Notes under the pieces: generated by a model
Told to the model about the DNA's origin: nothing
The model's input: the letters and a program-made list of their open reading frames with translations, nothing else
Database searches by the model: none
Part shown: positions 3,845-27,707 of the stretch, in pieces
How the letters are laid out: the number at the start of each line of letters is the position of its first letter
How positions within the stretch are numbered: the stretch's first letter is position 1
Source: a virus
IMG/VR virus record: IMGVR_UViG_3300033145_000937
Location: 1-29,034 of that record
Direction: 5' to 3' (one strand)
DNA length: 29,034 bases
Made by a program: the position numbers and the translations under genes

Positions 3845-4291
3845 TTATTTTTCTATATTGTTTAACTGGCATTGCAATTTTTCTCTTAGCTTCATTAATA
3901 TTTTTCCCAATTCATTTCTTGAAGTTCCATCGTGTTTTACCGAACCCCAAAAGTTATCACCCCATGTATTGCCTTCAATAAGCTCCTGATCGCCCGTATT
4001 CACTAGTCTTATAGCAATATCAGTATTATTCATAAACTTCGCTACTACTATCTTGCGCATAACTTTTATTTTAACTTTATCCCAATCTATTCGCAAGATT
4101 ATACTTCTACCTGCCTTCTTAGCTTCGCCTGGAGTCTTTAATGAACAAATATATCTTCTATCAATTGAACTAAAAGACTTGGCTGCTTGGAAAGCATGCT
4201 CAGACGAAGGGTATACCAAATTGCCGTAAGGAACATTGGTTAAATAAAAATTACTTAGAAAAGAATATTTATCTCTGAATGAACTAATCAT
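3845..4291 (-). CDS. NADAR-family (YbiA-like) glycohydrolase
   Basis: The 148-residue protein covers a whole NADAR domain. The characteristic motifs appear in order: FLSNFYL near residues 11-17, YPSSEHAFQAAKS (about 27-39, with the conserved Glu), KTPGEAKKAGR, W-D-K-V....VMRKIVVAKF, TGDQELIEGNTWGDNFWG (about 100-117), and RNELGKILMKLRE. Known NADAR proteins act on N-glycosidic bonds: E. coli YbiA belongs to riboflavin metabolism, and other members reverse ADP-ribosylation of guanine in nucleic acid as antitoxins or phage counter-defence. Which activity applies here is unknown. The gene overlaps the upstream PD-(D/E)xK nuclease by 4 bases, so the two are translationally coupled. Family assignment is strong. 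Confidence 0.88.
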   Translation of the reverse strand: MISSFRDKYSFLSNFYLTNVPYGNLVYPSSEHAFQAAKSFSSIDRRYICSLKTPGEAKKAGRSIILRIDWDKVKIKVMRKIVVAKFMNNTDIAIRLVNTGDQELIEGNTWGDNFWGSVKHDGTSRNELGKILMKLREKLQCQLNNIEK

Positions 4292-5165: not shown

Positions 5166-5447
5166 CTAGTCAGCCTGTCTTTTACCGCCTAATATCTTCC
5201 TATCACCAAAATTAAGCACCTCCAATATAGAACCAAGGGTCGTTAGTAACCCATTAAGCTTCGGGTGGGCAATTATCATAATACCTACAAATATTTCATT
5301 TTTACACTTGGGACAATTATCTTTAATAATTTTAGTACAGTCTTTTTCGAATGGAGCTATACTAATCAATATCTCCTGTTTACAATGGCCACATACTATT
5401 CTTGGTTTTAATTCTTCTTTATGGATTGTTATTAATTCTCTTGCCAT
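5166..5447 (-). CDS. Zinc-ribbon protein of unknown function
   Basis: The 93-residue protein carries two CxxC knuckles, CGHC at about residues 19-22 and CPKC at about 45-48, spaced as in a single four-cysteine zinc ribbon. The following segment (IFVGIMIIAHPKLNGLLTTLGSILEVL) is hydrophobic but interrupted by HPK, so a membrane segment is possible and not secure. The start codon overlaps the stop of the upstream HNH gene (TAATG), and its ribosome site GAAAGGAG is the last part of that HNH reading frame. The HNH copy therefore drives translation of this gene. Confidence 0.65.
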   Translation of the reverse strand: MARELITIHKEELKPRIVCGHCKQEILISIAPFEKDCTKIIKDNCPKCKNEIFVGIMIIAHPKLNGLLTTLGSILEVLNFGDRKILGGKRQAD

Positions 5448-6118
5448 TATATTCTCCTTTCAATTCTAATTATTTGTTGTGTTGATTTATTGATATACGA
5501 TACATGATCTTGTCTATTAATAATAACAAAATCTTTGGGGTTTACCGATATTGATTTATTATTTTGAAGTTGCCAATGTAATATGGCATGGCAAGGGTTA
5601 CATAAAGTCATAGTATCTTCTGGAGCACATCGTTTCTTATCTAAATAAATATGGTGGTTACCCAAACATTTATAATTATTCTTACAATTTTTATTTTCAC
5701 AGTAGTCTTTACGGATGTCTTTTTTGTATTCCCTATCTCTCCAGATTTCACAATACTTATCATTGGGATGGGATTTGGTATTTCCTATTGATATCTTTAA
5801 TTTTGTTTCTTCAGTATGTTTATAATTAAGCGCATTGATATTACCCATCATTCCTAATGATATTTTCTTTTTAGTTTCTTCAGATGGCTTTTTACCAATT
5901 TTTACAATAGACATTATTGCTTTTGATTCTTCTGAACATTTCTTACCACGCCTATTTGTATTGCCTTTACTTGCCACAGCCATCTTCTTCTTCGTTGCAT
6001 CAGATTGTTTTTTGCCAAGCATTGGTTTATTATGCCCACTAATATACCTCTTGCCATAGTTAGTTATCCTACCACAATCACCACAACCGCATATTCTACG
6101 TATTAGTTTCCTTTTCAT
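5447..6118 (-). CDS. NUMOD3/HNH homing-type endonuclease, copy A
   Basis: This is a 223-residue free-standing homing-type nuclease. Order: a basic N-terminus with a cysteine cluster (RRICGCGDCG) and a GHN motif; four NUMOD3-like DNA-binding repeats of the form S-E-E-T-K-x-K-I (KKQSDATKKKM, KKCSEESKAIM, KKPSEETKKKI, YKHTEETKLKI); then the nuclease part with DYCENKNCK, GNHHIYLDKKRCAPED, CNPCH and LH; and a C-terminal tail ending SYINKSTQQIIRIERRI. It lies between SbcC-C, which it overlaps by 4 bases, and a zinc-ribbon gene. Five close paralogues are in this window (7874, 9418, 16562, 20562, 27099). It is presumably mobile by homing into phages that lack it. Confidence 0.9.
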   Translation of the reverse strand: MKRKLIRRICGCGDCGRITNYGKRYISGHNKPMLGKKQSDATKKKMAVASKGNTNRRGKKCSEESKAIMSIVKIGKKPSEETKKKISLGMMGNINALNYKHTEETKLKISIGNTKSHPNDKYCEIWRDREYKKDIRKDYCENKNCKNNYKCLGNHHIYLDKKRCAPEDTMTLCNPCHAILHWQLQNNKSISVNPKDFVIINRQDHVSYINKSTQQIIRIERRI

Positions 6119-7873: not shown

Positions 7874-8443
7874 TTATCTCTCTTTCTTATTAATTCTTAT
7901 TATTTTCCTTGTTAATTTATTAATATATGACACGTGGTCTAGTCTATTTATTATAATAAAATCTTTTGGATCGGCTGATTTTCTTTTACCATCTTGCAAT
8001 GCATTATGTAAAACCACATGGCAACTACAACACAAAGTCATTACTTCATTTGGCGCACACCTCTTTTTATCCAAGAATACATGATGGTTATCTAATTGCT
8101 TATAATGACCTTTACAATTTTTATTTTCACAGTAGTCTTTTCTTATATCTTTTTTGTACTCTCCATCACGCCATATATCACAATACTCATCATTAGGATT
8201 ACATTTTAAATTTGCTAAAGATCGTTTTAATATTGATTCTTTAGATTTTGTTTTGCCTTTACTTGCTAAAGACATATTTCTTTTAGCTTCTACAGACTTG
8301 GGTTTACGCATCTTTCTTTTAGTTTCTTCTGAACGTTTTTTATTTTCCCAAGTATGCCCAAGAATATATTTTTTGCCTGGGCTTGTAATGCCACCACAAC
8401 CACCCCTACACCTTCTACGTATTTTTCTTTTCTTATTTTTCAT
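7874..8443 (-). CDS. NUMOD3/HNH homing-type endonuclease, copy B
   Basis: At 189 residues this is one of the shorter paralogues. The N-terminus has RRRCRGGCGG and a GHT motif. There are three NUMOD3-like repeats (KKRSEETKRKM, KPKSVEAKRNM and a weaker KTKSKESILKR). The HNH region has DYCENKNCKGHYKQL, DNHHVFLDKKRCAPNE, CCSCHVVLH, and the tail ends SYINKLTRKIIRINKKER. It is inserted between SbcC-N and SbcD, starting 11 bases inside the end of SbcC-N. Its last codons (AAGAAAGAGAGATAA) provide the purine-rich site in front of SbcD. Confidence 0.9.
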   Translation of the reverse strand: MKNKKRKIRRRCRGGCGGITSPGKKYILGHTWENKKRSEETKRKMRKPKSVEAKRNMSLASKGKTKSKESILKRSLANLKCNPNDEYCDIWRDGEYKKDIRKDYCENKNCKGHYKQLDNHHVFLDKKRCAPNEVMTLCCSCHVVLHNALQDGKRKSADPKDFIIINRLDHVSYINKLTRKIIRINKKER

Positions 8444-9417: not shown

Positions 9418-10110
9418 TTATATCTTTTTCTCTATTCTAAATATTATTTTTCTTGATTTTTTATTAATATACGACACATAGTCTAGTCTATTTATTACTA
9501 TAAAATCTTTGGGATTTACTTTTTGTCTTTTACCATCTTCAAGCGCACGATGTAACCATACATGGCAACTTCTACATAAAGTTATTACATCATCTGGAGC
9601 ACATCTTTTTTTATCTAACCAAATATGGTGATTAACAAGTAATTTAGATATCTTTTTGCAATTAGCATTTTCGCAATAATCTTTTCTTATATCTTTTACA
9701 TATTCTTTATCTCTCCAAGTATCACAATATTCATCTTTAGGATGGGGTTTGATACTTGTTATAACCTTATTTTTTATATGCTCTTCAGATTTTGGCTTAC
9801 GCATCTTTCTTTTTGTTTCTTCAGACCTTGGCCCACACCCATAAGTATTGCCCATCATCTTTTTTATATGTTCCTCCGAAAGCTTTCTACCAGTCAATCC
9901 TAAAGATATATTCTTTTTATGTTCCTCAGATTTTGGCTTACCAATTGCTGCTAAAAACATATTTTTTCTTGCTTCCTCAGATGGTGGACCACGTTTTTTA
10001 CCTTTCCAATAATGCCCATGGACATATTTATTACCTGGCTCGGTAATTAGCTTACATTTTTCATCTGCACAACCACATCTTCTACGAATTTTCCTTATCT
10101 GCTTTAACAC
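9418..10110 (-). CDS. NUMOD3/HNH homing-type endonuclease, copy C (GTG start)
   Basis: At 230 residues this is the longest paralogue. It starts with GTG at 10110, and the ribosome site GAGGAG is in the end of the 58-residue gene upstream. Its first six residues, MLKQIR, are identical to the start of the following SbcC N-half, unlike the other copies. There are five NUMOD3-like repeats (GPPSEEARKNM, KPKSEEHKKNI, RKLSEEHIKKM, GPRSEETKRKM, KPKSEEHIKNK), then DYCENANCKKISKLL, VNHHIWLDKKRCAPDD, CRSCHVWLH, and the tail SYINKKSRKIIFRIEKKI. It has evidently captured the translation start of the SbcC gene. Confidence 0.9.
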   Translation of the reverse strand: MLKQIRKIRRRCGCADEKCKLITEPGNKYVHGHYWKGKKRGPPSEEARKNMFLAAIGKPKSEEHKKNISLGLTGRKLSEEHIKKMMGNTYGCGPRSEETKRKMRKPKSEEHIKNKVITSIKPHPKDEYCDTWRDKEYVKDIRKDYCENANCKKISKLLVNHHIWLDKKRCAPDDVITLCRSCHVWLHRALEDGKRQKVNPKDFIVINRLDYVSYINKKSRKIIFRIEKKI

Positions 10111-14805: not shown

Positions 14806-15357
14806 TTATTCAGTAGCTACTAGCCTTCTCTCAGATGTAATGGTACTTACACACTTGATACTTTCTTGAATTGTTTTATCATTTAATTGTAATAACCCAC
14901 AATCAATTCCAAAATCAGTAAATGCACTCATCCAAGAATTATCTCTATCTTTATTTTTACTCTCGTATAATAATTCAAAATATACTTTTTTAATTCCAGA
15001 ACCTGCAATTTGCTTCAAGCAAACAAAACAGGGCTGTAAGGTACAATACATAATGCTATCTTTTATACTGATACCGTATTTAGCAGCGTAGTTGATTGCA
15101 TTAGCTTCCGCATGAATCGAAAGGCAAGTATTATACTTATCAATATCTAATGCTTTTTTTGATCTTCTAAAACAAAATTCACTTCCTTTGTCGCTACATT
15201 GAAACGTTCCAACAACTGTTCCTGTAAAACCAGTAGCAAGTATTCTATTATCTTTAACTATAATAGAACCGCTCGATCGCGAATTACATGTCGATCTTAA
15301 AGATATCAATTTTGCTATAACCATAAAATATTGATCCCAACTTATTCTATTCTGCAT
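14806..15357 (-). CDS. Deoxycytidylate (dCMP) deaminase
   Basis: The 183-residue enzyme converts dCMP to dUMP, the substrate of the thymidylate synthase encoded just upstream. The zinc-site motifs are HAE (H82, E84) and PCFVC (C110, C113). The segment RSTCNSRSSGSIIVKDNRIL near residue 21 is the usual first motif of dCMP rather than cytidine deaminases. The start overlaps the thymidylate synthase by 11 bases, with AAAGG ahead of it, so the two steps are co-translated. The central insert with extra cysteines and histidine (FQCSDKGSEFCFRRS) is the variable region where a second zinc binds in T4 dCMP deaminase. Confidence 0.9.
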   Translation of the reverse strand: MQNRISWDQYFMVIAKLISLRSTCNSRSSGSIIVKDNRILATGFTGTVVGTFQCSDKGSEFCFRRSKKALDIDKYNTCLSIHAEANAINYAAKYGISIKDSIMYCTLQPCFVCLKQIAGSGIKKVYFELLYESKNKDRDNSWMSAFTDFGIDCGLLQLNDKTIQESIKCVSTITSERRLVATE

Positions 15358-16120
15358 GCTTACCTTTCTTTAAAAGATTTTCTAATGGTTCAATCTGAAA
15401 ATCATAACAATGAAGACCCATACAAGAAAAGGCCATTGGCCCAGGCTCCACACCTATTTCTTCCGCTACATATTCGTTAAGTAAAGTAAAACCACCCATA
15501 TTCTGAGGCCACCCTCCATAAAGATCCCACGATCTATAGACAACGAGAGTTAATAATTTACCGTCTTTAACCTTAAAATCTAATCCTCTTAAGCAAGGCG
15601 ACGTGCCCCTTTCAGTTTCATTTGTATAGGGCTTGTCATATACAAAATTAGAATCTCTATCTCCTATATTAATATAACAATGATTATTTCCAAGACCCTT
15701 TTGTTTAAAGTGTCTAATCATCCATTCTAATTGAGTATCTCCTCCAGTAAACGACTCAGGTGGAACAGAAGGTTTTTTTGAATAGTAAGGGTTATAAAAT
15801 CTTCCATTAATCCACGTAGCATACTTATACTCTTCTAACTTACCCAAGACTGGATCCATTAAATAATTTGCAAAATATTCTCCTATTTTTTCATCCGTTG
15901 TTGTTGGATTTGATGAAATCCCTTCTGGCATTATAGGAGACAATGGCCTTTGATGAGGAAACATAGAAATACCAGAAACAAAATCAAATTCTAATCTATG
16001 CGCCCCTGCAAAAGAACCATTTGTAATCAAATACTTCCTACCATGATTATATATTTCCCATAAAAGATGAAACCAAGTATCACCAAGAGTTGTAGATTTA
16101 ACAAATACAGGATCGATCAT
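15347..16120 (-). CDS. Thymidylate synthase, archaeal (methanogen) type
   Basis: This is a 257-residue ThyA-superfamily enzyme that methylates dUMP. The nucleophile is C176 in TSPCLRG, followed by the phosphate-binding RSWD (R196-S197), PQN (N207), and LHCYD (H237, Y239). The residue equivalent to E. coli Asn177 is Asn, which favours dUMP rather than dCMP and argues against a cytidylate hydroxymethylase. The sequence RSWDLYGGWPQNMGGFTLLN and the one-residue differences from classical PCH....F are those of the shorter methanogen/archaeal branch, known also from some bacteria and phages. The N-terminus (DPVFVKSTTLGDTWFHLLWE) also fits that branch. Overlaps of 4 and 11 bases tie it to its neighbours. 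Confidence 0.82.
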   Translation of the reverse strand: MIDPVFVKSTTLGDTWFHLLWEIYNHGRKYLITNGSFAGAHRLEFDFVSGISMFPHQRPLSPIMPEGISSNPTTTDEKIGEYFANYLMDPVLGKLEEYKYATWINGRFYNPYYSKKPSVPPESFTGGDTQLEWMIRHFKQKGLGNNHCYINIGDRDSNFVYDKPYTNETERGTSPCLRGLDFKVKDGKLLTLVVYRSWDLYGGWPQNMGGFTLLNEYVAEEIGVEPGPMAFSCMGLHCYDFQIEPLENLLKKGKHAE

Positions 16121-16561: not shown

Positions 16562-17200
16562 TTATTTTTTTAGGCAAAACTTTTCAATTCTAATTATTTT
16601 TCTCGTAATTTTATTAATATACGATACGTGATCTATCCTATTAATTATTATAAAATCTTTTGGATTGACTTTTTGTGTTTTACCATTTTGCAATGCACGA
16701 TGTAACCACATATGACAACTATTACATAAAGTCATTACTTCATTTGGCGCACATCTCTTTTTATCTAAGTAGATATGATGGTTAACAAGTCTTTTAGATA
16801 TTTTCTTGCAATCTTTATTTTCACAGTAGTCTTTACGAATGTCATCTTTGTATTCTTTATCATACCATTCACAACCATATTCATAATTGGGATTAAATTT
16901 AATTTTTCCTAAAGCCATTTTTAATTTAGTTTTTTTAGATATATTTTGCTTCACCAAAGACATTTTCTTCTTCGTTTCTTTTGTATGCTTAAATCCAAGC
17001 GCATTTGTATTACCCATTTGACCCAAAGACATATTCTTTCTTACTTTTTCAACATGTATTTTTCCTATATTACCTTTTCCATAAATATTACCAATATTTC
17101 TACTTGCAGTATTATGTCCATTAATATATTTATTACCAGGATTGGTTATTAGCCCACAACCACATTTACATCCTCTTCTTATTTTCCTTTTCTTTTTCAT
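16562..17200 (-). CDS. NUMOD3/HNH homing-type endonuclease, copy D
   Basis: This is a 212-residue paralogue directly after the polymerase gene (9-base gap). The N-terminus is MKKKRKIRRGCKCGCG with INGHN. The NUMOD3-like repeats are degenerate (KIHVEKVRKNM, FKHTKETKKKM, SKKTKLKM). The nuclease region is intact: DYCENKDCKKISKRL, VNHHIYLDKKRCAPNE, CNSCHMWLH. The tail SYINKITRKIIRIEKFCLKK has an unusual last part after the common IIRIE, so the 3' end of this copy has diverged or been replaced. It is followed by a promoter and the tRNA-like element rather than by a coupled gene. Confidence 0.9.
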   Translation of the reverse strand: MKKKRKIRRGCKCGCGLITNPGNKYINGHNTASRNIGNIYGKGNIGKIHVEKVRKNMSLGQMGNTNALGFKHTKETKKKMSLVKQNISKKTKLKMALGKIKFNPNYEYGCEWYDKEYKDDIRKDYCENKDCKKISKRLVNHHIYLDKKRCAPNEVMTLCNSCHMWLHRALQNGKTQKVNPKDFIIINRIDHVSYINKITRKIIRIEKFCLKK

Positions 17201-17209
17201 AATTTTTTA

Positions 17210-20200
17210 TTAATAATTTTTAAATAATAATACCTTAAGTAATTTTAAAAATACATTTATTCCTTGCTTAAAAACAGGCTTATTATCTGAAGAATGTAAT
17301 GATGCAGATGGACTAATACAATAACATATCCAAGCAGAATATTCTTCATTCCAAACTGTCTTCCCGCTCATGGCTATAATCCCAGCCTTTTGACCAGTAA
17401 AGAAATTTAAACTCGTATTGCCAAATGCTAAAATTATCTTCGGTTTAACCATTTTTATTTCATATTTTATAAACTTGCTACATAACTGAATCTCTTCAAT
17501 TGTAGACTTACCACTTACACTTGGATAGCATTTATTAATAAATGTTACATGAAAATCTTCCCTCTTATACCCACCTTGCTTAATAGGCTTCCATAATATA
17601 TCTCCAGATCGACCTACAAACCCCGTCCCTTTTTTATCTTCATCATACCCAGGTACCCCACCTATAATAAACATATTGAATTTGCCTGTGCTTGGTGAAA
17701 CTGGAGCAGTACATTCTTCTCGTAATTTACAAGCAGTACAAGACATAAGATCATCATGCCCTGAAAATTCAACTCTTTTTATAATCCTTTTAGATTTGCA
17801 AACTCTTCTAAGTTCTTTGCTATCACCTGATATTAAACCATCTATACGATCTAAACGAATACTTCCAACAAGACGATAAAGATTTTTATAAGTAGCTTTT
17901 GGATCTATAATAATACGAAAGTCAAAATACGATTTAACCTTCTCGCTCATTTGAACATTATCATTTAGATCATAAGCACCTATATCTTCAAGTATAGTTC
18001 TTAACGCTTTCTCCTTATGCTTGGCTGAATTTTTAGTATTGAAAAGTCCTTTAAGCTTATTATCTACGGGCGAAGCAGCCTGATATGCCTTTACTTCGCC
18101 CAATTTTTTAACTTCTTTAAATGGTACGTATAATTTATTCCCTCTGGAAACCCAATTAACAGGATCACTTATACCAACCTTTGGCAAAACCAGCACCAGC
18201 CCCAATCTATAAGCTTCTTCAACCAATAATGTTTTTTTATCTTTTGCTCCGTATGTTAATGATGCACAAATAAATTCTGTTGGATAGTATCTCTTTAGCC
18301 ATGCACATTGGTAGCCAACCAGCGCATACGCAACGGAATGAGCCTTATTAAATGAATATTTAGCATGCTCTTCTAGCCCATCCCAAAACTCTTCTGCTTC
18401 CCTTTTAGAAAAGGTTTTCTGTCTTAGACATCCACGAATAAATTTTTTCTTGTATGGCATAAATTCTTTTACACTTCTCTTTTTCCCAATAATCTTCCTA
18501 ATCTTATCAGCCGTAGAATAAGGAAGACCAGCCATCTTATGGATTACTTCCATTACCTGCTCTTGATAAACAATAACTCCATAAGTATCCTTAGTAATTT
18601 TCTCATATATTTTATGATGCTTGTCCCACTTTCCGCCTCTTTGTCTTCGTATGTATTCAGCAGTCATTCCAGAGTTGTAGATTCCTGGCCTTACAAGAGC
18701 AACAACATCACTTAAAGTTTTAAAATTCTTTATTGATAGCTCTGATATAAGAGCAGTCAAGGCATAAGTATTAAGCTGAAATACACCAACCGTATTCCCT
18801 TCGTTTATATCTCTTATAACATCTTTATCTTCAATATCAATTTTATCTAAATCAATATTTTTATGATTTTCTTTAGCTAACCTTACAGTTTCACCAAAAA
18901 CACTTAGAAGCTTTAATGCCAATGCATCGAGCTTCATCAATCCCACAAATTCAGCATTGTTCTTTTCCCAATTTACAAGAATCATTTCATTTCTTTCCAT
19001 AAGGTTACAGCGAGTACTATCTTCAAGAGGCTTCTTTGATATTACTAAGGCAGCTGCATGAGTACTATAAGTTTTAATCTGCCCCTCTAATGTCTTTGCT
19101 ATTTTTATTATCTCTGGATAGTTATCATCAAATTCTTTTCCTTCTGGATATTCATCTATCGCTTCTTGTATTCCGGTATGATCGTCATTATCCTCAATCA
19201 ATTTAGCAAACCTATCTACTTCGCCTAAAGGTATATCAAACACTCTACTAACATCTCTAACAACGGCCTTTGCTTTCATTCTATTAAAGCTACTTATATT
19301 TGCTATATGATTTTCTCCATACATTATTTGCAAATGCTTTTTTACAATATGTCTTTTTGTATGTTCAAAATCTACATCAATATCAGGATAGTCAATTCTA
19401 TCCTTATTAATAAATCTACTAAAAAGTAAACCATGTCGTATAGGGTCTAATTTGGCACCAGTGATTCCAAGAAGAAATGAAATTAATGACCCTCCGGCAG
19501 ACCCCCTGCCTTCACCAACAAAAATGCCATTCTTTTTACACCAACTAACCAATTCCCAAACTATTAAAAAATAACGAACAAATTTTTTATTAATAATTAA
19601 ATCGTATTCTTCTTTTAGCCTTTCATAATAAGCTTTATCTAGTTTAATACTCTTGCCAAATTTATTTCTAAATCCTTTAATACAAAGCTTCCATAAAAAA
19701 TTCTTTTCATTTAAAGGAACTCCTTTTACACGAGGTAATAATACTTCCTGTTTAACTATTCTAAAATCACTGCATTTCTCTGCTATCTCTATTGTATTCG
19801 TAAGATACTCTTTTTTATAAAAATCTATACTATTAAGTGCCCTCATCATTTCATTAGCAGTACATAAGTGAAGATTTTTAATTGAAAATTTCCATCGTTT
19901 AGGGTCTGTCCATCGTGCCTTTGTTTGAATTGCCAAAAGCACTTCTTGAGCTTTCCACTCACTGCGATTGATATAATGGCAGTCATTTGTAGCTATAATC
20001 TTACACCCAGTTTTACGAGAAAGTCGTAATGCAAGTTTATTTACCTTCCGTTGAGCTTCTAGTTTATGAGGCATTACTTCAAGATATAAGTCATCACCAA
20101 TCTTATCAAACAAGTCATGGAACAACGCAATCCCACTATCAAACTTGGTTAAAAAGGAACTCGCGCATGCTGTAGATATAACAAGACCCTTGCAGTGATC

Positions 20201-20569
20201 TAAAAGCATTTTATAACTAATTCTCGGTCTATAATAAAACCCTTCTATATTAGCGTAGGTAAGCAATCTACATAAATTTTTAAATCCGGTTTGATTCTTT
20301 ACCAAGAGTACTACGTGGCCACGTACCCTGTCTTTCTTTTCTATATCAGGAGCAATATATGCTTCGCATCCTAGAATTGGAGCAACACCATATTCATCGC
20401 ATGCCTTCTGAAACTCAATAAGGCCAGTCATTACGCCATGATCGGTACAGGCTAAATATTTAAATCCTAATTTTGAAGCTCTTTCGGCGTACTTTTTAAC
20501 CGTACCAACACCATCTAATACACTATATTCAGTATGCAGGTGTAAATGACAAAAGTTTGCATTATCCAT
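17210..20569 (-). CDS. dnaE: DnaE-type (C-family) DNA polymerase fused to a family-4 UDG-like domain
   Basis: This is the 1119-residue replicative polymerase. Residues 1-210 are a PHP domain with metal ligands still present (CHLHLH at 7-12, TDHG at 42-45). The palm/nucleotide site includes GEGRGSAGGSLISF (352-365) and catalytic D396 and D398 in YPDIDVDFE. The tandem helix-hairpin-helix region follows (about 800). The usual OB and tau-binding domains are not recognisable. Instead, residues about 940-1110 match family-4 uracil-DNA glycosylase: cysteines 944, 947, 1014 and 1030 with 4Fe-4S spacing, the GxPGxxED-like IGGVPGYDEDKKG, and FVGRSGDIL. The usual HPS motif reads SPSAS, so the glycosylase activity is doubtful. 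It is flanked by HNH copies D and E. Confidence 0.92.
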   Translation of the reverse strand: MDNANFCHLHLHTEYSVLDGVGTVKKYAERASKLGFKYLACTDHGVMTGLIEFQKACDEYGVAPILGCEAYIAPDIEKKDRVRGHVVLLVKNQTGFKNLCRLLTYANIEGFYYRPRISYKMLLDHCKGLVISTACASSFLTKFDSGIALFHDLFDKIGDDLYLEVMPHKLEAQRKVNKLALRLSRKTGCKIIATNDCHYINRSEWKAQEVLLAIQTKARWTDPKRWKFSIKNLHLCTANEMMRALNSIDFYKKEYLTNTIEIAEKCSDFRIVKQEVLLPRVKGVPLNEKNFLWKLCIKGFRNKFGKSIKLDKAYYERLKEEYDLIINKKFVRYFLIVWELVSWCKKNGIFVGEGRGSAGGSLISFLLGITGAKLDPIRHGLLFSRFINKDRIDYPDIDVDFEHTKRHIVKKHLQIMYGENHIANISSFNRMKAKAVVRDVSRVFDIPLGEVDRFAKLIEDNDDHTGIQEAIDEYPEGKEFDDNYPEIIKIAKTLEGQIKTYSTHAAALVISKKPLEDSTRCNLMERNEMILVNWEKNNAEFVGLMKLDALALKLLSVFGETVRLAKENHKNIDLDKIDIEDKDVIRDINEGNTVGVFQLNTYALTALISELSIKNFKTLSDVVALVRPGIYNSGMTAEYIRRQRGGKWDKHHKIYEKITKDTYGVIVYQEQVMEVIHKMAGLPYSTADKIRKIIGKKRSVKEFMPYKKKFIRGCLRQKTFSKREAEEFWDGLEEHAKYSFNKAHSVAYALVGYQCAWLKRYYPTEFICASLTYGAKDKKTLLVEEAYRLGLVLVLPKVGISDPVNWVSRGNKLYVPFKEVKKLGEVKAYQAASPVDNKLKGLFNTKNSAKHKEKALRTILEDIGAYDLNDNVQMSEKVKSYFDFRIIIDPKATYKNLYRLVGSIRLDRIDGLISGDSKELRRVCKSKRIIKRVEFSGHDDLMSCTACKLREECTAPVSPSTGKFNMFIIGGVPGYDEDKKGTGFVGRSGDILWKPIKQGGYKREDFHVTFINKCYPSVSGKSTIEEIQLCSKFIKYEIKMVKPKIILAFGNTSLNFFTGQKAGIIAMSGKTVWNEEYSAWICYCISPSASLHSSDNKPVFKQGINVFLKLLKVLLFKNY

Positions 20570-21125
20570 TTTTATTATTTACCTTATTAATTCTTATTAT
20601 TTGTTTATTTGATTTGCGTATGTATGACACGTGATCTGGGCGATTGATTATAATAAAGTCTTTGAGATTTGCTTTTTGATGCCATGCAAGCATTTGATGT
20701 AACCATGCATGGCAAGGATTACACAATGTTATTACATCATCTGGTGCACATCTCTTTTTATCTAAATAGATATGATGGTTAACAAGATATTTGTAATTAT
20801 CTTTACAATCCTTGTTTTCACAGTAATTTTTTCTTAAGTCTTTTATATATTCTGGATCTTGCCATTCACAACCGTATTGGTAATTTGGATTGGGTTTGAT
20901 TTGTGCTAAAGCTCGTTTTAATATATGCTCTTCGGATTGTTTTTTACCTTTATTAGCTTTCCCATTGGTATTGCCCATCATTCTTATAGAGCATTTCTTT
21001 TTCCATTCTTTAGTATGTGTATTTCTATTATGCCCTGGCAAATACTTCTTGCCATAATTGGTTATTAAACCACAACCATCTCCACACCTTCTACGTATTA
21101 ATCTTTTCCCGTTTTTAAATTTCAT
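20562..21125 (-). CDS. NUMOD3/HNH homing-type endonuclease, copy E
   Basis: At 187 residues this is the shortest intact copy. N-terminus MKFKNGKRLIRRRCGDGCG with PGHN; only two NUMOD3-like repeats (NTHTKEWKKKC, KKQSEEHILKR). The nuclease has DPEYIKDLRKNYCENKDCK, VNHHIYLDKKRCAPDD, CNPCHAWLH, and the tail is SYIRKSNKQIIRINKVNNKNG. It lies between the radical-SAM/SPASM gene and the polymerase and overlaps the polymerase start by 8 bases, so polymerase translation is coupled to that of this mobile gene. Confidence 0.9.
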   Translation of the reverse strand: MKFKNGKRLIRRRCGDGCGLITNYGKKYLPGHNRNTHTKEWKKKCSIRMMGNTNGKANKGKKQSEEHILKRALAQIKPNPNYQYGCEWQDPEYIKDLRKNYCENKDCKDNYKYLVNHHIYLDKKRCAPDDVITLCNPCHAWLHQMLAWHQKANLKDFIIINRPDHVSYIRKSNKQIIRINKVNNKNG

Positions 21126-21129
21126 GACG

Positions 21130-22113
21130 TTATCTCTTGTTTAATATATCCTTAATTCCTATTCTTTTCCCTTCAGGTTTTTCCCACGGCCTTTTGACTA
21201 TTCTTGACATTGTCTTGTCAAGTGTATTTTCCTCTTGTATATGTTCTATTTCTTTTTTTATAGGTATTGGCAATGTTGCTTTCCCCATCTTGTCTGGTAG
21301 CAATCCAACTCTGTAAGATATTGCATCGCACCATTTGCATGGTATGAAATTTCTGTTTCTATGGTATAATAATTTTCTTGCAATATTAAACTCCTTACCA
21401 TTCCAAATATCGTCTAGACAGCCTCCTTCTTTTACTTCTCCGCAATAGTAATGTCCTCTCCAATCGTTACAGCATATAGCAATTTTGCCATCCCATCTAA
21501 TACTCAATTCTCTAAATGGCTTTGCGCATCTTTTTTCTATTGGTGAAAGTAATGGAGGAAAGGCACACCCACAATGATTATTTAAAGTGCTATGCCCACC
21601 ACTTCCAGCGTCTTGTATGTCTTTTATGTATATAACTTTTTTGGTAGTAATTGGAAATTTTTTATGTGGGCTTGCGCATCCGGGATATTCTTCGCCTTTT
21701 ACTTTTAATTTGATCTTCTTTGAGAACGGATTATTTTTATAATCATCTATACCAATAATATTTATCCCATTTAAAAATAACTTATGGATTTTTTCTTTTG
21801 GTAAACGTGCAAGTCCAGTTCCATTTGTCAATATTGTTAATTGATTTTGTGGAAGATGAAATCTAAATATTTTTATAATTTCTAGATACTTTGGATTTAA
21901 AGTAGGCTCTCCATGCATGGCAAACTCAATACGTGATCCCCATTTTGTCGCCTTGATTTGTCTTGCAATGTTTTTACTACATTCTAACGACATGAATTTA
22001 TGTCCAGTTGGTTTTTTTCTTATGCCACGTATACCACAAAATTTACAAAATAAATTACAACCTTCTGTAAGTTCAACTTGTATTGAAAACGGTGGTTCTT
22101 GTTTTTCTTTCAT
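21130..22113 (-). CDS. Radical SAM enzyme with SPASM-type C-terminal cluster motif
   Basis: This is a 327-residue protein. The radical-SAM cluster motif is CNLFCKFC (CxxxCxxC, about residues 19-26) in ELTEGCNLFC, with the GE-type motif FAMHGEPTLNP (about 64-74). In the C-terminal half, RWDGKIAICCNDW, then GGCLDDIWNGKEF and FIPCKWC form the pattern of a SPASM or twitch auxiliary cluster. Such enzymes modify peptides, sugars or other substrates by radical chemistry. It overlaps the sulfotransferase-like gene by 4 bases and is last of a four-gene cassette (21130-25184). An inserted segment (about 135-190) with extra cysteines (NNHCGCAFPP) is unusual. Substrate unknown. Confidence 0.88.
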   Translation of the reverse strand: MKEKQEPPFSIQVELTEGCNLFCKFCGIRGIRKKPTGHKFMSLECSKNIARQIKATKWGSRIEFAMHGEPTLNPKYLEIIKIFRFHLPQNQLTILTNGTGLARLPKEKIHKLFLNGINIIGIDDYKNNPFSKKIKLKVKGEEYPGCASPHKKFPITTKKVIYIKDIQDAGSGGHSTLNNHCGCAFPPLLSPIEKRCAKPFRELSIRWDGKIAICCNDWRGHYYCGEVKEGGCLDDIWNGKEFNIARKLLYHRNRNFIPCKWCDAISYRVGLLPDKMGKATLPIPIKKEIEHIQEENTLDKTMSRIVKRPWEKPEGKRIGIKDILNKR

Positions 22114-22904
22114 TTTGAAATTAATCTCCCCTTTTTATTTAGTGCCCATCCAAATATGGAAAGGTTTATTTTACGCAACTCATCATCATCTAAAACTTTT
22201 TTGAATTTGGGAGTAATTCCAAATTCCTCAATATATTCCTTATACCGACCAAGGATTTCTTTAGGATTGGCATCTTTTCTGGTACCTGTAAACGAACTGC
22301 CGCCACCATAACTATGAATCTTATAGTCAAAGCGTCCATCGTTATTTGGGAGTTCTAACATCTCGCCGAGCTGAATGCGATATTTCTTTTTTGTAAACCA
22401 GTCATTGTAATTCAAACGAAAACAAAAATCAAAATTCTTATTAATAGCGAGTTGTTTCCAATGAATGATGCATTCGCTATACCACCCAGGAGGAGCAGGG
22501 GTTTTACGTTTATCGGAAAACTTTAAGCGAGAGACGACGTGGTTATACACATCTCGAATGATAATAATATATTTAATTTTACTAGTTGTTATACCATATT
22601 TTTTAAATCTATACAGGCCATCTGCATATCTCAATGCATCCTCGTAAGTCGTAACAACAAATGGGTGAACTATTTTTAATCTTCCTTTTTCATATTGTCT
22701 CAATTGAGTTTCATCATCTGCATTATGGAATGGGTATTCTATATTCCAATACTTTGTTGGACGAGTCCATTTTACATGTGGTCGAAGAGAATTAATTAAC
22801 ACTCCTGGTTCTTCAAAATGTAATGGAATCCATTCAACAATTGCATGACCCCCAGACCTCCTTTGGAAGAACAATCTATATTCTATGCTTACTTTTTGAG
22901 CCAT
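22110..22904 (-). CDS. Sulfotransferase-like protein
   Basis: This is a 264-residue protein. The N-terminal FFQRRSGGHAIVEWI (about 12-26) is like the 5'-phosphosulfate loop of PAPS-dependent sulfotransferases (R-S-G-x-H/T-x-L-x-x-x-L), and YIIIIRDVYNHVVSRLKFS (about 112-130) is like the 3'-phosphate motif (RDP.....S). The region after residue 130 has a W-rich segment (CIIHWKQLAI) and RLNYNDW, as seen where sulfotransferases have [YF]E.L. The transferred group and acceptor are not shown by the sequence. It overlaps the glycosyltransferase by 16 bases and the radical-SAM/SPASM gene by 4, so these act as one unit. Another P-loop transferase is the main alternative. Confidence 0.7.
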   Translation of the reverse strand: MAQKVSIEYRLFFQRRSGGHAIVEWIPLHFEEPGVLINSLRPHVKWTRPTKYWNIEYPFHNADDETQLRQYEKGRLKIVHPFVVTTYEDALRYADGLYRFKKYGITTSKIKYIIIIRDVYNHVVSRLKFSDKRKTPAPPGWYSECIIHWKQLAINKNFDFCFRLNYNDWFTKKKYRIQLGEMLELPNNDGRFDYKIHSYGGGSSFTGTRKDANPKEILGRYKEYIEEFGITPKFKKVLDDDELRKINLSIFGWALNKKGRLISK

Positions 22905-23728
22905 AATCTAATACCTCCATCCAATCTTTTCATTGTATTAAAAATTCTCTTCCATTGTATAACAACATCGGTTCTTGTTTTGCTATCAAAACCTTTCCAT
23001 GGTTTTGAACTGACCTTTTCAACTACACGCACATACTTTGGAAACTCTTGTGCTAATAAAATAGCACTTTCTTTTTGCATTTGAGATGTTCTGTATAAAG
23101 AGCATCCTCCATCAGCACCGCTCTGAGCTTGATTCCATGCATACTTATATGTAACACAATTTTTAAATCCACGCTGAAGTAATAATAATGTTACTACAAA
23201 ATCCTCCATAACAAGCTGTTTATTGTACTTGTTTTCAAGATAGTCGAATGATATGTTATATTTTTTTTTCAGCTCAATCATTTTTTTACAATTATAAGCA
23301 TACGCATTATTCATTCTTGTAATTTCCACATAATCTTCTTCTATTCTATTATTACCACATCTTTGACTTATGCCTACATGTATTATTCCTTCTTCAAGCC
23401 AACTCTCAAGGGTCCTAACCATATTAATAAAATCTTTAGGGCTACATTTTTGTAATTTTAAATTTTTATCACGAACATGAAAATTCATATCATCATCTAA
23501 CATCAATGCATATTTCTTTTTGCTATTTTCAATAATCCACTGCCTTGTTTTACATATACCCTTCTCAGGACACTCTATAACATTCGTGCCATATATTTTT
23601 TTATATTTTTTAAAATCTTGTTTATCAACTACGATGAAGGTGTTTTTTATAAATCTTTTAGGTATGGAATCAAAAGTTCTTTGATTTCTTGGTCTTCTAT
23701 GGCTTGGTATATATATGGCAATTTGCAT
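22889..23728 (-). CDS. Glycosyltransferase of the TET-associated (TAGT) type
   Basis: The preferred start is the ATG at 23728 (MQIAIYIPSH), with AAGGAC upstream, giving 279 residues; an ATG at 23779 lies inside the preceding gene. GT-A features are the IYIPSHRRP strand (5-13) and LMLDDDMNF (76-83, DDD metal motif). Beyond these, the order of GISQRCGNNR (119-128), VMEDFVVTLLLLQRGFKN (173-190), GGCSLYRT (207-214) and RTDVVIQWKRIF matches the phage TAGT family. That family is known from gene neighbourhoods to glycosylate modified pyrimidines in DNA, usually beside a TET/JBP oxygenase. No TET gene is in this window. The sugar donor and acceptor are unknown; other GT-A families are the alternative. 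Confidence 0.82.
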   Translation of the reverse strand: MQIAIYIPSHRRPRNQRTFDSIPKRFIKNTFIVVDKQDFKKYKKIYGTNVIECPEKGICKTRQWIIENSKKKYALMLDDDMNFHVRDKNLKLQKCSPKDFINMVRTLESWLEEGIIHVGISQRCGNNRIEEDYVEITRMNNAYAYNCKKMIELKKKYNISFDYLENKYNKQLVMEDFVVTLLLLQRGFKNCVTYKYAWNQAQSGADGGCSLYRTSQMQKESAILLAQEFPKYVRVVEKVSSKPWKGFDSKTRTDVVIQWKRIFNTMKRLDGGIRLWLKK

Positions 23729-23753
23729 CTTCTTTTTGTCCTTTTTTATATTT

Positions 23754-25184
23754 TCATTTTGTAAGATCGATCCCTTCATTTATCCAACGATCTTCATAAT
23801 CCGATTTTACATATATGTATACAAGATTTTCATTTTCATCGATTCTAATAGGTTTTACTTTACCATGAAAATAATTTGCAGGATTGCCGGGAGACCTGAG
23901 GTTATTCCAAGTAGCTCTAGCAAAATCAGCATATGACAAGCCTTGCCGTTCACACGCTGTCTTGCCGGATACACCAACATGGTCACTACCAAATTCAGTA
24001 GCCTTTAAATACGTATCCTTTTTGAAATTAAACACCTTATCAAATTTAAACTGCAAAACCCTACCATCACTATGATACTGTCTTCTTGCTTCTTTCAAAA
24101 AATAAGTTAGCTGACTTTTTGACCAATTTTGCATTTCTTTATTCTGTTCATAATCATCTGGCAACCCACAGCAAGACCCACTCATATTAAGTTCTTTGTA
24201 ATCCGGATCGCTACAAGCGAATAGAATATCATTTTTAAGACAAAACTTATATATCTTCTTAACAAATCGCTCCTTCACCAGTCTATTAAGCCTCATATAC
24301 CCACCACGTTCACTAGGGCTAAGAGCCTTAAAATATTTTAACAAATCTTTACAACCAATCAATTCGCCTATCCACTTATATCGTTTCATAAGATGATCGT
24401 TATGTCTTAAATCAATAGCAACAAATTCCATACTGACAGCCTGTATTCCTGCTTCCTTTGCCTTATATAACAAGTCATCTAGCCCATCATCTGAAATGCC
24501 TATAATAAAGGGTCTAAGGCGCAATATTGTATAATACCCCATATCGGATAATTGCTTTATTGCTTGTAATCGCTTACTTGTAACTGGTACACCAATTTCT
24601 ATCTTCCTGCTCATCTCATCACTTGGAGCTATAATAGAAACTTGAAAGGCAAAATTCTTTTGGTGAGCATATTTACCAAAAAGCTTGCGAAAATTAGGTC
24701 TAAAAATAGCCGATCCTTTAAAACTGAAAAGAGTTGGATATTTTTCCATTGCAAGTGCTCTAATAATTTTATATCCGATATTATTTGCTTTTTCAAAATT
24801 ACAGAATGGGTCTGCAAGGCCACCCCAATGGAAGACGAATCTTTTCTTTAAAAAATGCTCATAGAAAGCTTTATTACGTGACCCTGTTGGCTTGCCATGA
24901 ATAGTAGATATAAGGTTTTTGTAATTCACTGAATGTAACTTATTAGAAAAGCTTGGGTTAGAAGTCTTTTGCATTACTGCGAAGCAGTAGCTACAGCCCA
25001 TCGAGCAAAACGAGTAATGGTCAAACGTCATTGGCAAACTGCAATCCATAAACTCACTACTTATTCTTGGGCTTCCATATCTAAACGCTTTGGTACTTCG
25101 CGTATCAATCTTTAACCCTTTATTTTGCCTTACAAAAAGATTAGCCTCTCTTGTAATTGACTCCTGTGTATCACTCATTTTCAT
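23754..25184 (-). CDS. Radical SAM enzyme, SplB/photolyase-like
   Basis: This is a 476-residue protein. The cluster motif is CSMGCSYCF (CxxxCxxC, about 60-67), preceded by SLPMTFDHYSF. FHWGGLADPFC (about 118-128) is where SplB-like proteins have their G-T-x-T-D-P-Y motif. The first 290 residues look like a TIM-barrel radical-SAM domain. The last about 150 (GSCCGLPDDYEQNKEMQNW onward, with KTACERQGLSYADFARATWN) are a separate region unknown to me, which may bind substrate or an additional cluster. It is first of the cassette, coupled to a 134-residue gene by 4 bases. Known relatives act on DNA thymine dimers or unknown substrates; here a base-modifying role is inferred from the TAGT neighbour. 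Confidence 0.85.
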   Translation of the reverse strand: MKMSDTQESITREANLFVRQNKGLKIDTRSTKAFRYGSPRISSEFMDCSLPMTFDHYSFCSMGCSYCFAVMQKTSNPSFSNKLHSVNYKNLISTIHGKPTGSRNKAFYEHFLKKRFVFHWGGLADPFCNFEKANNIGYKIIRALAMEKYPTLFSFKGSAIFRPNFRKLFGKYAHQKNFAFQVSIIAPSDEMSRKIEIGVPVTSKRLQAIKQLSDMGYYTILRLRPFIIGISDDGLDDLLYKAKEAGIQAVSMEFVAIDLRHNDHLMKRYKWIGELIGCKDLLKYFKALSPSERGGYMRLNRLVKERFVKKIYKFCLKNDILFACSDPDYKELNMSGSCCGLPDDYEQNKEMQNWSKSQLTYFLKEARRQYHSDGRVLQFKFDKVFNFKKDTYLKATEFGSDHVGVSGKTACERQGLSYADFARATWNNLRSPGNPANYFHGKVKPIRIDENENLVYIYVKSDYEDRWINEGIDLTK

Positions 25185-25585
25185 AATCTCACCATTTTCC
25201 CATTCTTATTTTTTATAAGGAATTTCTTTCTTGACCGACTCCACTTTATACGGCCATTCCTCATAAGCCTTATAAGCTCTATTAAAAAATCAACATCATA
25301 AGTATTATTTTCTACATATGCATTTAATTTAAAAAATTTTCCAAGCTTTTCGATATGAGAAGAATCTGGGAATGCAAGAAGGAGAGTTCTCTTTTGGAAA
25401 CTTGTTCGCCCTGCCTTTGCCCCTTTATATTTAGGTACTGGCATAGGTTTTAATAAATGCATTTCTATTTTTCTTTGTTCTTCTTTTGAAGAGGCAGAAA
25501 CAATTAATTTTTCAAACTTTTTTATTTGACTTTCTTCTCGTGATATTTTTGATTTACTTACAAATTTCGTAATATCCATAATCAT
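25181..25585 (-). CDS. Basic protein of unknown function heading the radical-SAM cassette
   Basis: This is a 134-residue protein with a 4-base overlap into the SplB-like radical-SAM gene. The N-terminus is helical and charged (KSKISREESQIKKFEKL); a central RTSFQKRTLLLAFPDSSH looks like a buried strand and turn, then KFFKLNAYVENNTYDVDFLI; the C-terminus is very basic (KWSRSRKKFLIKNKNGK). The RTLLLAFP and NTYD motifs are reminiscent of small phage ParB-like nuclease partners, without enough detail to assign. It lies directly after a 20-base scar of an HNH gene that supplies its ribosome site (GAAAGGAAG). Confidence 0.6.
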   Translation of the reverse strand: MIMDITKFVSKSKISREESQIKKFEKLIVSASSKEEQRKIEMHLLKPMPVPKYKGAKAGRTSFQKRTLLLAFPDSSHIEKLGKFFKLNAYVENNTYDVDFLIELIRLMRNGRIKWSRSRKKFLIKNKNGKMVRL

Positions 25586-27098: not shown

Positions 27099-27707
27099 TT
27101 AAATTTCCTTATTTATTCTTATTATTTTTCTTGTTGATTTATTAATATACGATACATGATCTATCCTGTTAATTATTATAAAATCTTTTGGGTTGATCTT
27201 TTTATATTGTTCTTCTTCGAGCAAGCGATGTAATATAGGATGACAACTATTACATAAAGTCATTACTTCATCTGGCGCACATCTTTTTTTATCTAAGAAG
27301 ATATGGTGGTTACATAGTCTTTTAGAAATACCCTTGCAATTTTTATTTTCACAATAATTTTTACACAAATCTTTTCTGTATTCTGGGTCTTGCCATTCGC
27401 AACCGTATTGATAATCAGGATTGTATTTGATATGCCCCAAAGATATATTTAATTTTGTTTCTTCAGACATGTTTTGCTTTGCTAAAGACATATTCTTTCT
27501 TGCTTCTTCAGACTTTGGACCACGCATTTTTTCTTTTGATTCTTCGGTATGTATTTTTCCTTTATTACCTTTTCCTATTTTCTTTTTCATTTCTTTAGAT
27601 AATTTTATATTTCTTCTATGATGTCCACGAAGATACTTCTTGCCATAGTTAGTTATACTACCACAACCACACTTGCATCTTCTTCTTATTTTCCTTTTCT
27701 TTTTCAC
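27099..27707 (-). CDS. NUMOD3/HNH homing-type endonuclease, copy F (GTG start)
   Basis: This is a 202-residue paralogue starting with GTG at 27707, since no in-frame ATG precedes the conserved KKKRKIRRRCKCGCG. It has a GHH motif and four NUMOD3-like repeats (IKLSKEMKKKI, KIHTEESKEKM, GPKSEEARKNM, QNMSEETKLNI). The nuclease has NYCENKNCKGISKRL, CNHHIFLDKKRCAPDE, CNSCHPILH, and the tail SYINKSTRKIIRINKEI. It separates the sliding clamp from the clamp loader, genes that are adjacent in T4-like phages. The ribosome site (GAGG) is about 15 bases away, so expression may rely on coupling to the clamp gene. Confidence 0.9.
   Translation of the reverse strand: MKKKRKIRRRCKCGCGSITNYGKKYLRGHHRRNIKLSKEMKKKIGKGNKGKIHTEESKEKMRGPKSEEARKNMSLAKQNMSEETKLNISLGHIKYNPDYQYGCEWQDPEYRKDLCKNYCENKNCKGISKRLCNHHIFLDKKRCAPDEVMTLCNSCHPILHRLLEEEQYKKINPKDFIIINRIDHVSYINKSTRKIIRINKEI

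Follow-up and report, generated by a model that had tools for sequence, protein, structure and literature searches.

Genes of the locus

The window, which is the whole 29,034-nucleotide stretch of virus DNA analyzed here, holds five minus-strand open reading frames in positions 21130-25585. All five genes called by an earlier note on this DNA exist. They are given below, together with three other genes of the window.

25181..25585, minus strand: basic protein, 134 aa; upstream partner of the SplB-like gene in nearly all of 20 loci with homologues
23754..25184, minus strand: SplB/PA0069-type radical SAM enzyme, 476 aa; NCBIfam NF033668 at 49.3 bits, CxxxCxxC motif
22889..23728, minus strand: TAGT glycosyltransferase of GT-A type with a DDD motif, 279 aa; PF20691, PHROG 842
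22110..22904, minus strand: sulfotransferase-like protein, 264 aa; motifs, weak profile match, APS kinase in relatives
21130..22113, minus strand: radical SAM/SPASM enzyme, 327 aa; PF04055, PF13186
20562..21125, minus strand: HNH homing-type endonuclease, one of six paralogues; weak PHROG 7370 HNH match
15347..16120, minus strand: thymidylate-synthase-fold (TS-fold) enzyme with Asn (dUMP-type); PF00303 at 35.9 bits
14806..15357, minus strand: dCMP deaminase (dUMP supply); PF00383 at 68.3 bits, ComEB-like at 108 bits

The genes for the basic and SplB-like proteins overlap by 4 bases (25181/25184), TAGT and sulfotransferase-like by 16 bases (22889/22904), and sulfotransferase-like and SPASM by 4 bases (22110/22113). 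The TAGT frame spans 22889-23779, and read from this long start it overlaps the SplB-like gene by 26 bases. Read from the conserved start at 23728, the Met where the homologue in the close relative L003 begins, it leaves a gap of 25 bases. Gene order and reading frames are kept in relatives at 53-82% protein identity, and thus the five frames are not due to chance. The cassette lies within a T4-like replication module, in the part that runs from clamp to polymerase, in agreement with its earlier placement inside the replication region, and in all relatives of this phage group the island lies between clamp loader and polymerase. All the records compared are contigs with no completeness estimates, and the window record is a fragment.

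The glycosyltransferase and the probable modified base

The profile search confirmed the TAGT assignment of 22889-23728. PF20691 matched at 68.6 bits (curated cut-off of 27.5) over model positions 2-205 of 205, and PHROG 842, whose name comes from the T-even gentiobiosyl enzyme, matched at 2.6e-46. Identity to the members from T4-like phages is only 22-25%. The family is clear from these matches, and the protein very likely glycosylates a base of DNA, its presumed substrate.

The TAGT of T6 and T2 (beta-glucosyl-HMC-alpha-glucosyltransferase, PF20691) is of the same Pfam and PHROG family, and there too T4-like replication genes lie around it. The T6 member acts on glucosylated hmC (PMC13216743), so cytosine keeps a share of the probability. 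Unlike T6 and T2, the window has no dCMP-type hydroxymethylase, and its TAGT gene has those of two radical SAM enzymes and of the sulfotransferase-like protein as companions. The TS-fold protein at 15347-16120 reads WPQN; it shares this Asn with thymidylate synthases and phage M6 gp58, whereas the residue in T4 gp42 is Asp. A T4-type dCMP hydroxymethylase was rejected for this gene because Asn replaces the cytosine-recognizing Asp. By its sequence it would be either a dTMP synthase or a dUMP hydroxymethylase, and it may simply make dTMP. A TET HMM search found no Tet/JBP gene in the window, and 5-hmdU DNA kinase or HMUDK_hel, present in sister islands, is absent from this fragment record.

A T6-like pathway, where the TAGT sugar would go onto (glucosyl-)hydroxymethylcytosine with tailoring afterwards, would suit both the name of PHROG 842 and the T4-like replication module. 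We consider it unlikely: besides the Asn of the TS-fold protein, no alpha- or beta-glucosyltransferase was present among the window proteins scanned, and sister islands carry 5-hmdU kinase, ADDT, and dUMP-type TS-fold genes. Thymine rather than cytosine is the likely modified base.

The radical SAM enzymes and their neighborhoods

For 23754-25184, the SplB-like radical SAM assignment holds. Its CxxxCxxC motif at residues 60-67 is intact and conserved, and the nearest NCBIfam is the PA0069/Rv2578c radical SAM family (NF033668; 3.5e-13, 49.3 bits). It falls below the equivalog cut-offs for SPL (15.8 vs. 437 bits) and PA0069 (49.3 vs. 360 bits), and by these scores is a distant relative of both equivalogs, not a member. 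The family comprises 47 viral and 17 bacterial/archaeal loci (64 in total), and its HMM matches phage M6 gp53 at 97 bits. Its relatives adjoin TAGT genes, M6 gp54-like kinases (5-hmdU-kinase-like; E 1e-10 to 7e-15), the amino acid:DNA transferase ADDT (PF18724, 69.7 bits), and Ploopntkinase3 (PF18751, 41.8 bits). The family is widespread among phages and prophages, and many of the genomes that carry it were obtained from gut or rumen.

Tet_JBP was found in 0/20 SplB-like records by HMM search (the positive control worked), and the SplB-like lineages are mostly without a recognized hydroxymethylase or TET. The SplB-like enzyme may thus prepare the base oxygen-free, and we regard a role as maker of the base handle as possible but doubtful. 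Mutual replacement between SplB-like and TS/TET genes gave P 7e-13 when lineages were merged at 90% identity, 1e-7 at 70%, and 0.59 at 50%; since the signal is lost at 50% merging, a strict exchange is a lead and not a result.

The basic protein goes with the SplB-like enzyme and not with the TAGT block: nearly all of its homologues (20 loci) lie directly upstream of an SplB-like gene, and the 4-base overlap recurs in many of them. In other lineages, a ParB-like gene is found at this position or close to it. The protein had no Pfam match, and its AF2 model (pLDDT 75, pTM 0.31) had no PDB match at E<=0.001. It sits at the position of T4 regA, which is synteny only, RegA identity being without sequence support.

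The radical-SAM/SPASM assignment of 21130-22113 was reproduced with both domains above cut-off (PF04055, 51.1 bits; PF13186 SPASM, 35.9 bits) and a C19-x3-C23-x2-C26 motif (CxxxCxxC). When relatives were merged at 90% identity, 29 of the 40 lineages had a TS-fold or Tet/JBP gene within about 8 kb. These neighbors include TS-fold genes (above cut-off), HMUDK_hel (PF18723, 145.8 bits), and Tet_JBP (PF12851, 79 bits), and the TS-fold enzymes are often accompanied by 5-hmdU DNA kinase domains. The TS and HMUDK proteins at these loci closely resemble gp58 and gp55 of phage M6 (404 and 287 bits). Such neighborhoods support the placing of the SPASM enzyme in a DNA-hypermodification-linked clade.

The role in DNA hypermodification first proposed from the window is therefore backed by independent neighborhoods with a 5-hmdU DNA kinase domain, the TS-fold hydroxymethylase type, Tet/JBP, and an amino acid:DNA transferase; judging from this comparison, it is the role that the region very probably has. 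Peptide maturation is common for SPASM enzymes and glycan targets are common for sulfotransferases, and the three genes could instead act on a surface glycan of the host or in the maturation of a peptide, with no relation to DNA. The L091 contig has a sulfotransferase-like/kinase pair (L140) in a different region, which would suit such a pathway. We hold it to be very improbable, as the glycosyltransferase is a TAGT and not of a glycan family, the clamp loader-polymerase location is common to all relatives of this group, and DNA-base enzymes adjoin the island genes in unrelated phages.

The sulfotransferase-like protein

The 264-aa protein (22110-22904) had no match in Pfam, PHROG, NCBIfam, or PDB, and no Pfam sulfotransferase family passed its curated cut-off for the window, L003, or L016 proteins. 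Close to its N-terminus lies RRSGGHA (5' PAPS-loop-like), and it also contains IIIIRDVYNHVVSR (3' phosphate-motif-like) and GGGSSFTG; RSGGHA and RDxYNxxxSR are invariant in three lineages of the protein (72% and 30% identity). In profile comparison, sulfotransferases rank best among about 57 families, and hhalign against Sulfotransfer_3 proteins gave a weak match (nominal P 0.0017, decoys >=0.048). An AlphaFold model from three sequences reached only pLDDT 36 and was discarded, and searches of phages, PDB, bacterial contigs, and 198 Bacteroidota genomes retrieved no convincing bridging relatives.

In the close relatives (L003), this operon also includes an APS kinase gene (L003:14001-14606) that overlaps the SPASM gene by 4 bases. 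Its protein matches PF01583 at 194 bits and TIGR00455 at 222 bits (equivalog-domain cut-off of 138.7). The product of APS kinase is PAPS, which donates the sulfate. The gene is absent from the window, where the HNH endonuclease (20562..21125) holds its place. The operon in relatives thus strengthens the earlier guess of a sulfotransferase, which is still not proven. From the motifs, the weak profile match and, most tellingly, the relatives' APS kinase, sulfate transfer is a rather probable function.

The same island could work without sulfate, the 264-aa protein being a P-loop or other transferase and the relatives' APS kinase homologue acting on another hydroxyl (e.g., as a DNA or sugar kinase). 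The empty database searches and the poor AF2 model would agree with this, and P-loop-class DNA kinases are common in sister islands. We find it rather unlikely, considering that the relatives' kinase passes the cut-off of true APS kinases, that both motifs are invariant, and that sulfotransferases lead the profile comparison.

Modularity and comparison to known systems

The TAGT, sulfotransferase-like, and SPASM genes occur together in 3/3 lineages that have the sulfotransferase-like gene, including the distant L016, where HMUDK_hel and TS are also present. The five genes of the earlier note are not one fixed unit: from the gene neighborhoods, the moving block is TAGT-sulfotransferase-SPASM and the constant core is the basic protein with the SplB-like enzyme. 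Silent divergence is lowered in the block (68/185 four-fold sites vs. 391/607 for the nine genes flanking it, P 3.6e-11), and at these sites it looks as if it had been exchanged as one piece between two diverged phages.

Pseudomonas phage M6, with 5-NedU made from 5hmdU in its DNA (PMC6449724, PMC11946847), has a TS-fold hydroxymethylase type, a kinase, HMUDK_hel, and the SplB-type radical SAM gp53 together in a cluster. Most SPASM-relative loci likewise carry M6-type TS and HMUDK_hel. Unlike the island in the window, M6 tailors with an amino group and not a sugar, and the SPASM, TAGT, sulfotransferase-like, and basic HMMs had no match among the M6 proteins tested. Tet/JBP-TAGT phage clusters were reportedly described by Iyer et al. 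in 2013, a study that PMC6449724 cites. As in them, TAGT adjoins DNA-base enzymes here, and the L058 type combines Tet_JBP, ParB, SplB-like, TAGT, and SPASM, whereas the window is without Tet/JBP.

Proposed pathway

As a whole, a modular thymine/5-hydroxymethyluracil tailoring island with a new, predicted sulfating branch is the best explanation, and we deem it fairly probable from the sequence comparisons. First, either a TS-fold enzyme would make hydroxymethylated dUMP before replication as the base handle, or the basic partner would bring the SplB-like enzyme to DNA, with the base activated there. TAGT would then put a sugar on the handle, and the SPASM enzyme may alter either this sugar or the side chain of the base. 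Finally, the sulfotransferase-like protein would move sulfate from PAPS to a sugar hydroxyl, with PAPS supplied by the host in the window virus and boosted by the phage APS kinase in close relatives. The resulting base would be bulky and carry negative charge, and would protect the genome against nucleases of the host.

The hypermodified thymine of Bacillus phage SP-15 is dihydroxypentyluracil with glucose and phosphoglucuronate (PMC5977210). Like the proposed product it is negatively charged and sugar-bearing, but it has a phosphodiester instead of sulfate and a different gene set, with Thy1-type enzymes. We know of no described sulfate ester on a DNA base. If true, it would be new genome chemistry and a new handle for host defenses and for enzymatic DNA labelling.

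TET enzymes are O2-dependent and should not work in anaerobes. More speculatively, and unlikely in its entirety, the SplB-like family would be an O2-independent substitute for hydroxymethylase/TET on thymine in DNA, feeding interchangeable decorating modules (TAGT and sulfotransferase, kinase and amino acid transferase, or GT-B), and would lead here to a sulfated glycosylated base, the first DNA sulfate ester. With the SplB-like core constant and the tailoring genes exchangeable, how viruses of anaerobes activate thymine in DNA becomes a testable question.

Gene content and genomic setting

The window is in itself a virus record (29,034 bases). It carries a T4-like replication module (clamp, clamp loader of the 44 and 62 types, polymerase, UvsY, gp32, RecA/UvsX, and 5'-3' exonuclease) whose polymerase is a DNA polymerase III alpha of bacterial type. 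The five co-directional genes described in the earlier note were borne out; they sit with the small clamp-loader subunit on one side and the polymerase on the other:

25181-25585, minus strand, basic protein
23754-25184, minus strand, SplB-like protein (distant SplB/PA0069-type radical SAM)
22889-23728, minus strand, TET-associated glycosyltransferase (TAGT)
22110-22904, minus strand, sulfotransferase-like protein (264 aa)
21130-22113, minus strand, SPASM enzyme

Profile search agreed that the glycosyltransferase is a TAGT (PF20691, 68.6 bits, cut-off 27.5; PHROG 842, 2.6e-46), and its start is probably 23728, since relatives begin at that Met. The SPASM enzyme exceeded both domain cut-offs. 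The SplB-like protein keeps CxxxCxxC intact. With matches of 1e-11 to 1e-13, it resembles the radical SAM families PA0069/Rv2578c but stays well under their equivalog cut-offs, and judged by score it is not a spore photoproduct lyase.

The polymerase (17210-20569) ends in a uracil-DNA-glycosylase domain (PF03167, residues 966-1103, 64 bits), and a UDG-like protein seemingly occupies the corresponding position in several relatives. Dispersed over the replication region are six HNH endonucleases of the homing type, paralogues at 45-60% identity (5447-6118, 7874-8443, 9418-10110, 16562-17200, 20562-21125, and 27099-27707). A NADAR-domain protein (3845-4291; PF08719, 92 bits) is possibly linked to ADP-ribosylation-based defence.

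Probable exchange of a three-gene block

Four viral contigs of a single lineage (L002-L005) hold the five genes in unchanged order, with 53-82% protein identity. We compared four-fold degenerate sites gene by gene between the window and L003. Nine replication, SplB-like and basic genes differed at 50-73% of these sites, near saturation, whereas TAGT differed at 25%, SPASM at 32%, and the sulfotransferase-like gene at 55% (Fisher P 3.6e-11 for the three against the nine). Within the sulfotransferase-like gene, nucleotide identity falls from roughly 0.83 to 0.70. These divergences are most simply read as a recent exchange of the three genes together between phages that have otherwise diverged; selection on silent sites is less likely. 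A third, distant sulfotransferase-like copy (L016, 25-30% identity) again adjoins TAGT and SPASM, with HMUDK_hel (PF18723) and a TS-fold gene nearby. The three genes thus co-travel in 3/3 lineages. The earlier proposal of five linked genes holds for gene order in L002-L005, but the moving block leaves out the basic and SplB-like genes.

The sulfotransferase-like protein

The sulfotransferase-like protein had no database match, curated families included. RRSGGHA, RDxYNxxxSR, and GGGSSFTG are invariant across its three lineages, and their order agrees with that of sulfotransferases: 5' PAPS loop, 3' phosphate motif, and late glycine-rich loop. By hhalign, the family matched 14 Sulfotransfer_3 proteins from Bacteroidota genomes at a nominal P of 0.0017 (decoys, 42 phage families and the reversed sequence, gave 0.048 or worse), with the RDxYN segment aligned to the corresponding RNP segment.

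In the L002-L005 lineage, an APS kinase follows the SPASM gene immediately, with a 4-base overlap (L003 lineage: PF01583, 194 bits; TIGR00455, 222 bits, cut-off 138.7). APS kinase makes PAPS, the donor for sulfotransferases. One of the six HNH endonucleases takes its place in the window, where PAPS would have to be host-derived. The invariant motifs, the hhalign match, and the kinase in the relatives' operon incline us towards sulfate transfer, a leaning tempered by the lack of a curated match, an unusable AF2 model, and a search for a bridging homologue that found none.

The island's parts are of known kinds: TAGTs, the SplB-like radical SAM of Pseudomonas phage M6 (gp53), 5-hmdU kinases, and Tet/JBP clusters. 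The literature searched, which did not include Iyer 2013 and Lee 2022 as the likeliest sources of earlier hints, describes no DNA-modification cluster with a sulfotransferase or an APS kinase, nor an island built on a constant basic and SplB-like core. Solitary TAGTs, without alpha- or beta-GT, occurred in 288/753 phage genomes surveyed and were termed potentially novel (PMC13216743).

The SPASM clade

The scan found SPASM relatives at 60 viral loci, which merged at 90% identity into 40 lineages, the window among them. Their neighbourhoods held a TS-fold gene in 24/40, HMUDK_hel in 21/40, and Tet_JBP in 5/40 (representative Pfam scores: Thymidylat_synt 63.8, HMUDK_hel 145.8, and Tet_JBP 79 bits). 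The TS profile matched M6 gp58 (404 bits) and the HMUDK_hel profile M6 gp55 (287 bits); the SPASM profile had no match among the M6 proteins tested. M6 DNA contains 5-(2-aminoethyl)deoxyuridine made from 5hmdU (PMC6449724; PMC11946847). These neighbours tie the SPASM clade to hydroxymethylated thymine.

A second, unrelated sulfotransferase-like protein (L015:956-1660; PF13469, 19.4 bits, under cut-off) lies roughly 7 kb away from a cluster of SPASM, TAGT-like, HMUDK and TS genes.

The SplB-like clade and the origin of the handle

SplB-like relatives occupied 47 viral loci and another 17 in bacteria or archaea; most of these 17 came from MAGs of gut and rumen samples. In phages like that of the window, the basic protein gene precedes the SplB-like gene, frequently overlapping it by 4 bases, and the DNA between this pair and the polymerase forms an island of variable content.

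Island content between the basic/SplB-like pair and the polymerase
Window: TAGT, sulfotransferase-like, SPASM
L003: TAGT, sulfotransferase-like, SPASM, APS kinase
L013: B12-binding radical SAM, two SPASM, two TAGT
L081, L083, L084: M6 gp54-like kinase (E 1e-10 to 7e-15)
L082, L086: GT-B-like genes with B12 radical SAM or SPASM
L088, L089, L091: TAGT, one or two copies

The B12-binding enzyme (L013:3628-5238), alongside the two TAGTs and two SPASM enzymes, suggests that the decoration undergoes methylation or some other radical step. A conserved protein of ~170-200 aa with no Pfam match recurs in islands with the gp54-like kinase or TAGT (L081:9670-10254, L083:8468-9046, L084:5255-5854, and L089:6424-6939) and is a candidate new tailoring enzyme.

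Other SplB-like loci have a ParB-like gene in or close to the upstream position, accompanied by ADDT (PF18724, 69.7 bits), Ploopntkinase3 (PF18751, 41.8 bits), GNAT or TAGT genes. The SplB-like family HMM matched M6 gp53 at 97 bits, and both gp53 and the window protein match the same NCBIfam families. In the 5-NedU pathway, gp53 acts as the radical SAM isomerase.

For the steps by kinase, ADDT, and TAGT, the base must carry a handle such as a hydroxymethyl group. Of 20 SplB-like records (several span 70-190 kb), none had Tet_JBP, with a TET positive control included, and one had a TS-fold gene. Pooled, TS or TET occurred in 4/50 SplB-like lineages vs. 26/30 other SPASM lineages (P 7e-13 with 90% merging, 1e-7 with 70%, not significant with 50%). 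This rarity, though later steps need the handle, suggests that the SplB-like enzyme may itself prepare the base, independently of oxygen.

The window is among the few SplB-like exceptions with a TS-fold gene. Enzymes forming dTMP and 5-hmdUMP have no safe distinction from sequence (PMC5977210), and either could be the product here; the substrate is likely dUMP, because Asn replaces the Asp of T4 dCMP hydroxymethylase. In L091 (8779-11227), the SplB-like gene is split by what looks like an intein at the radical SAM cysteine cluster, since the insert ends in GVLVHNC before FSYF.
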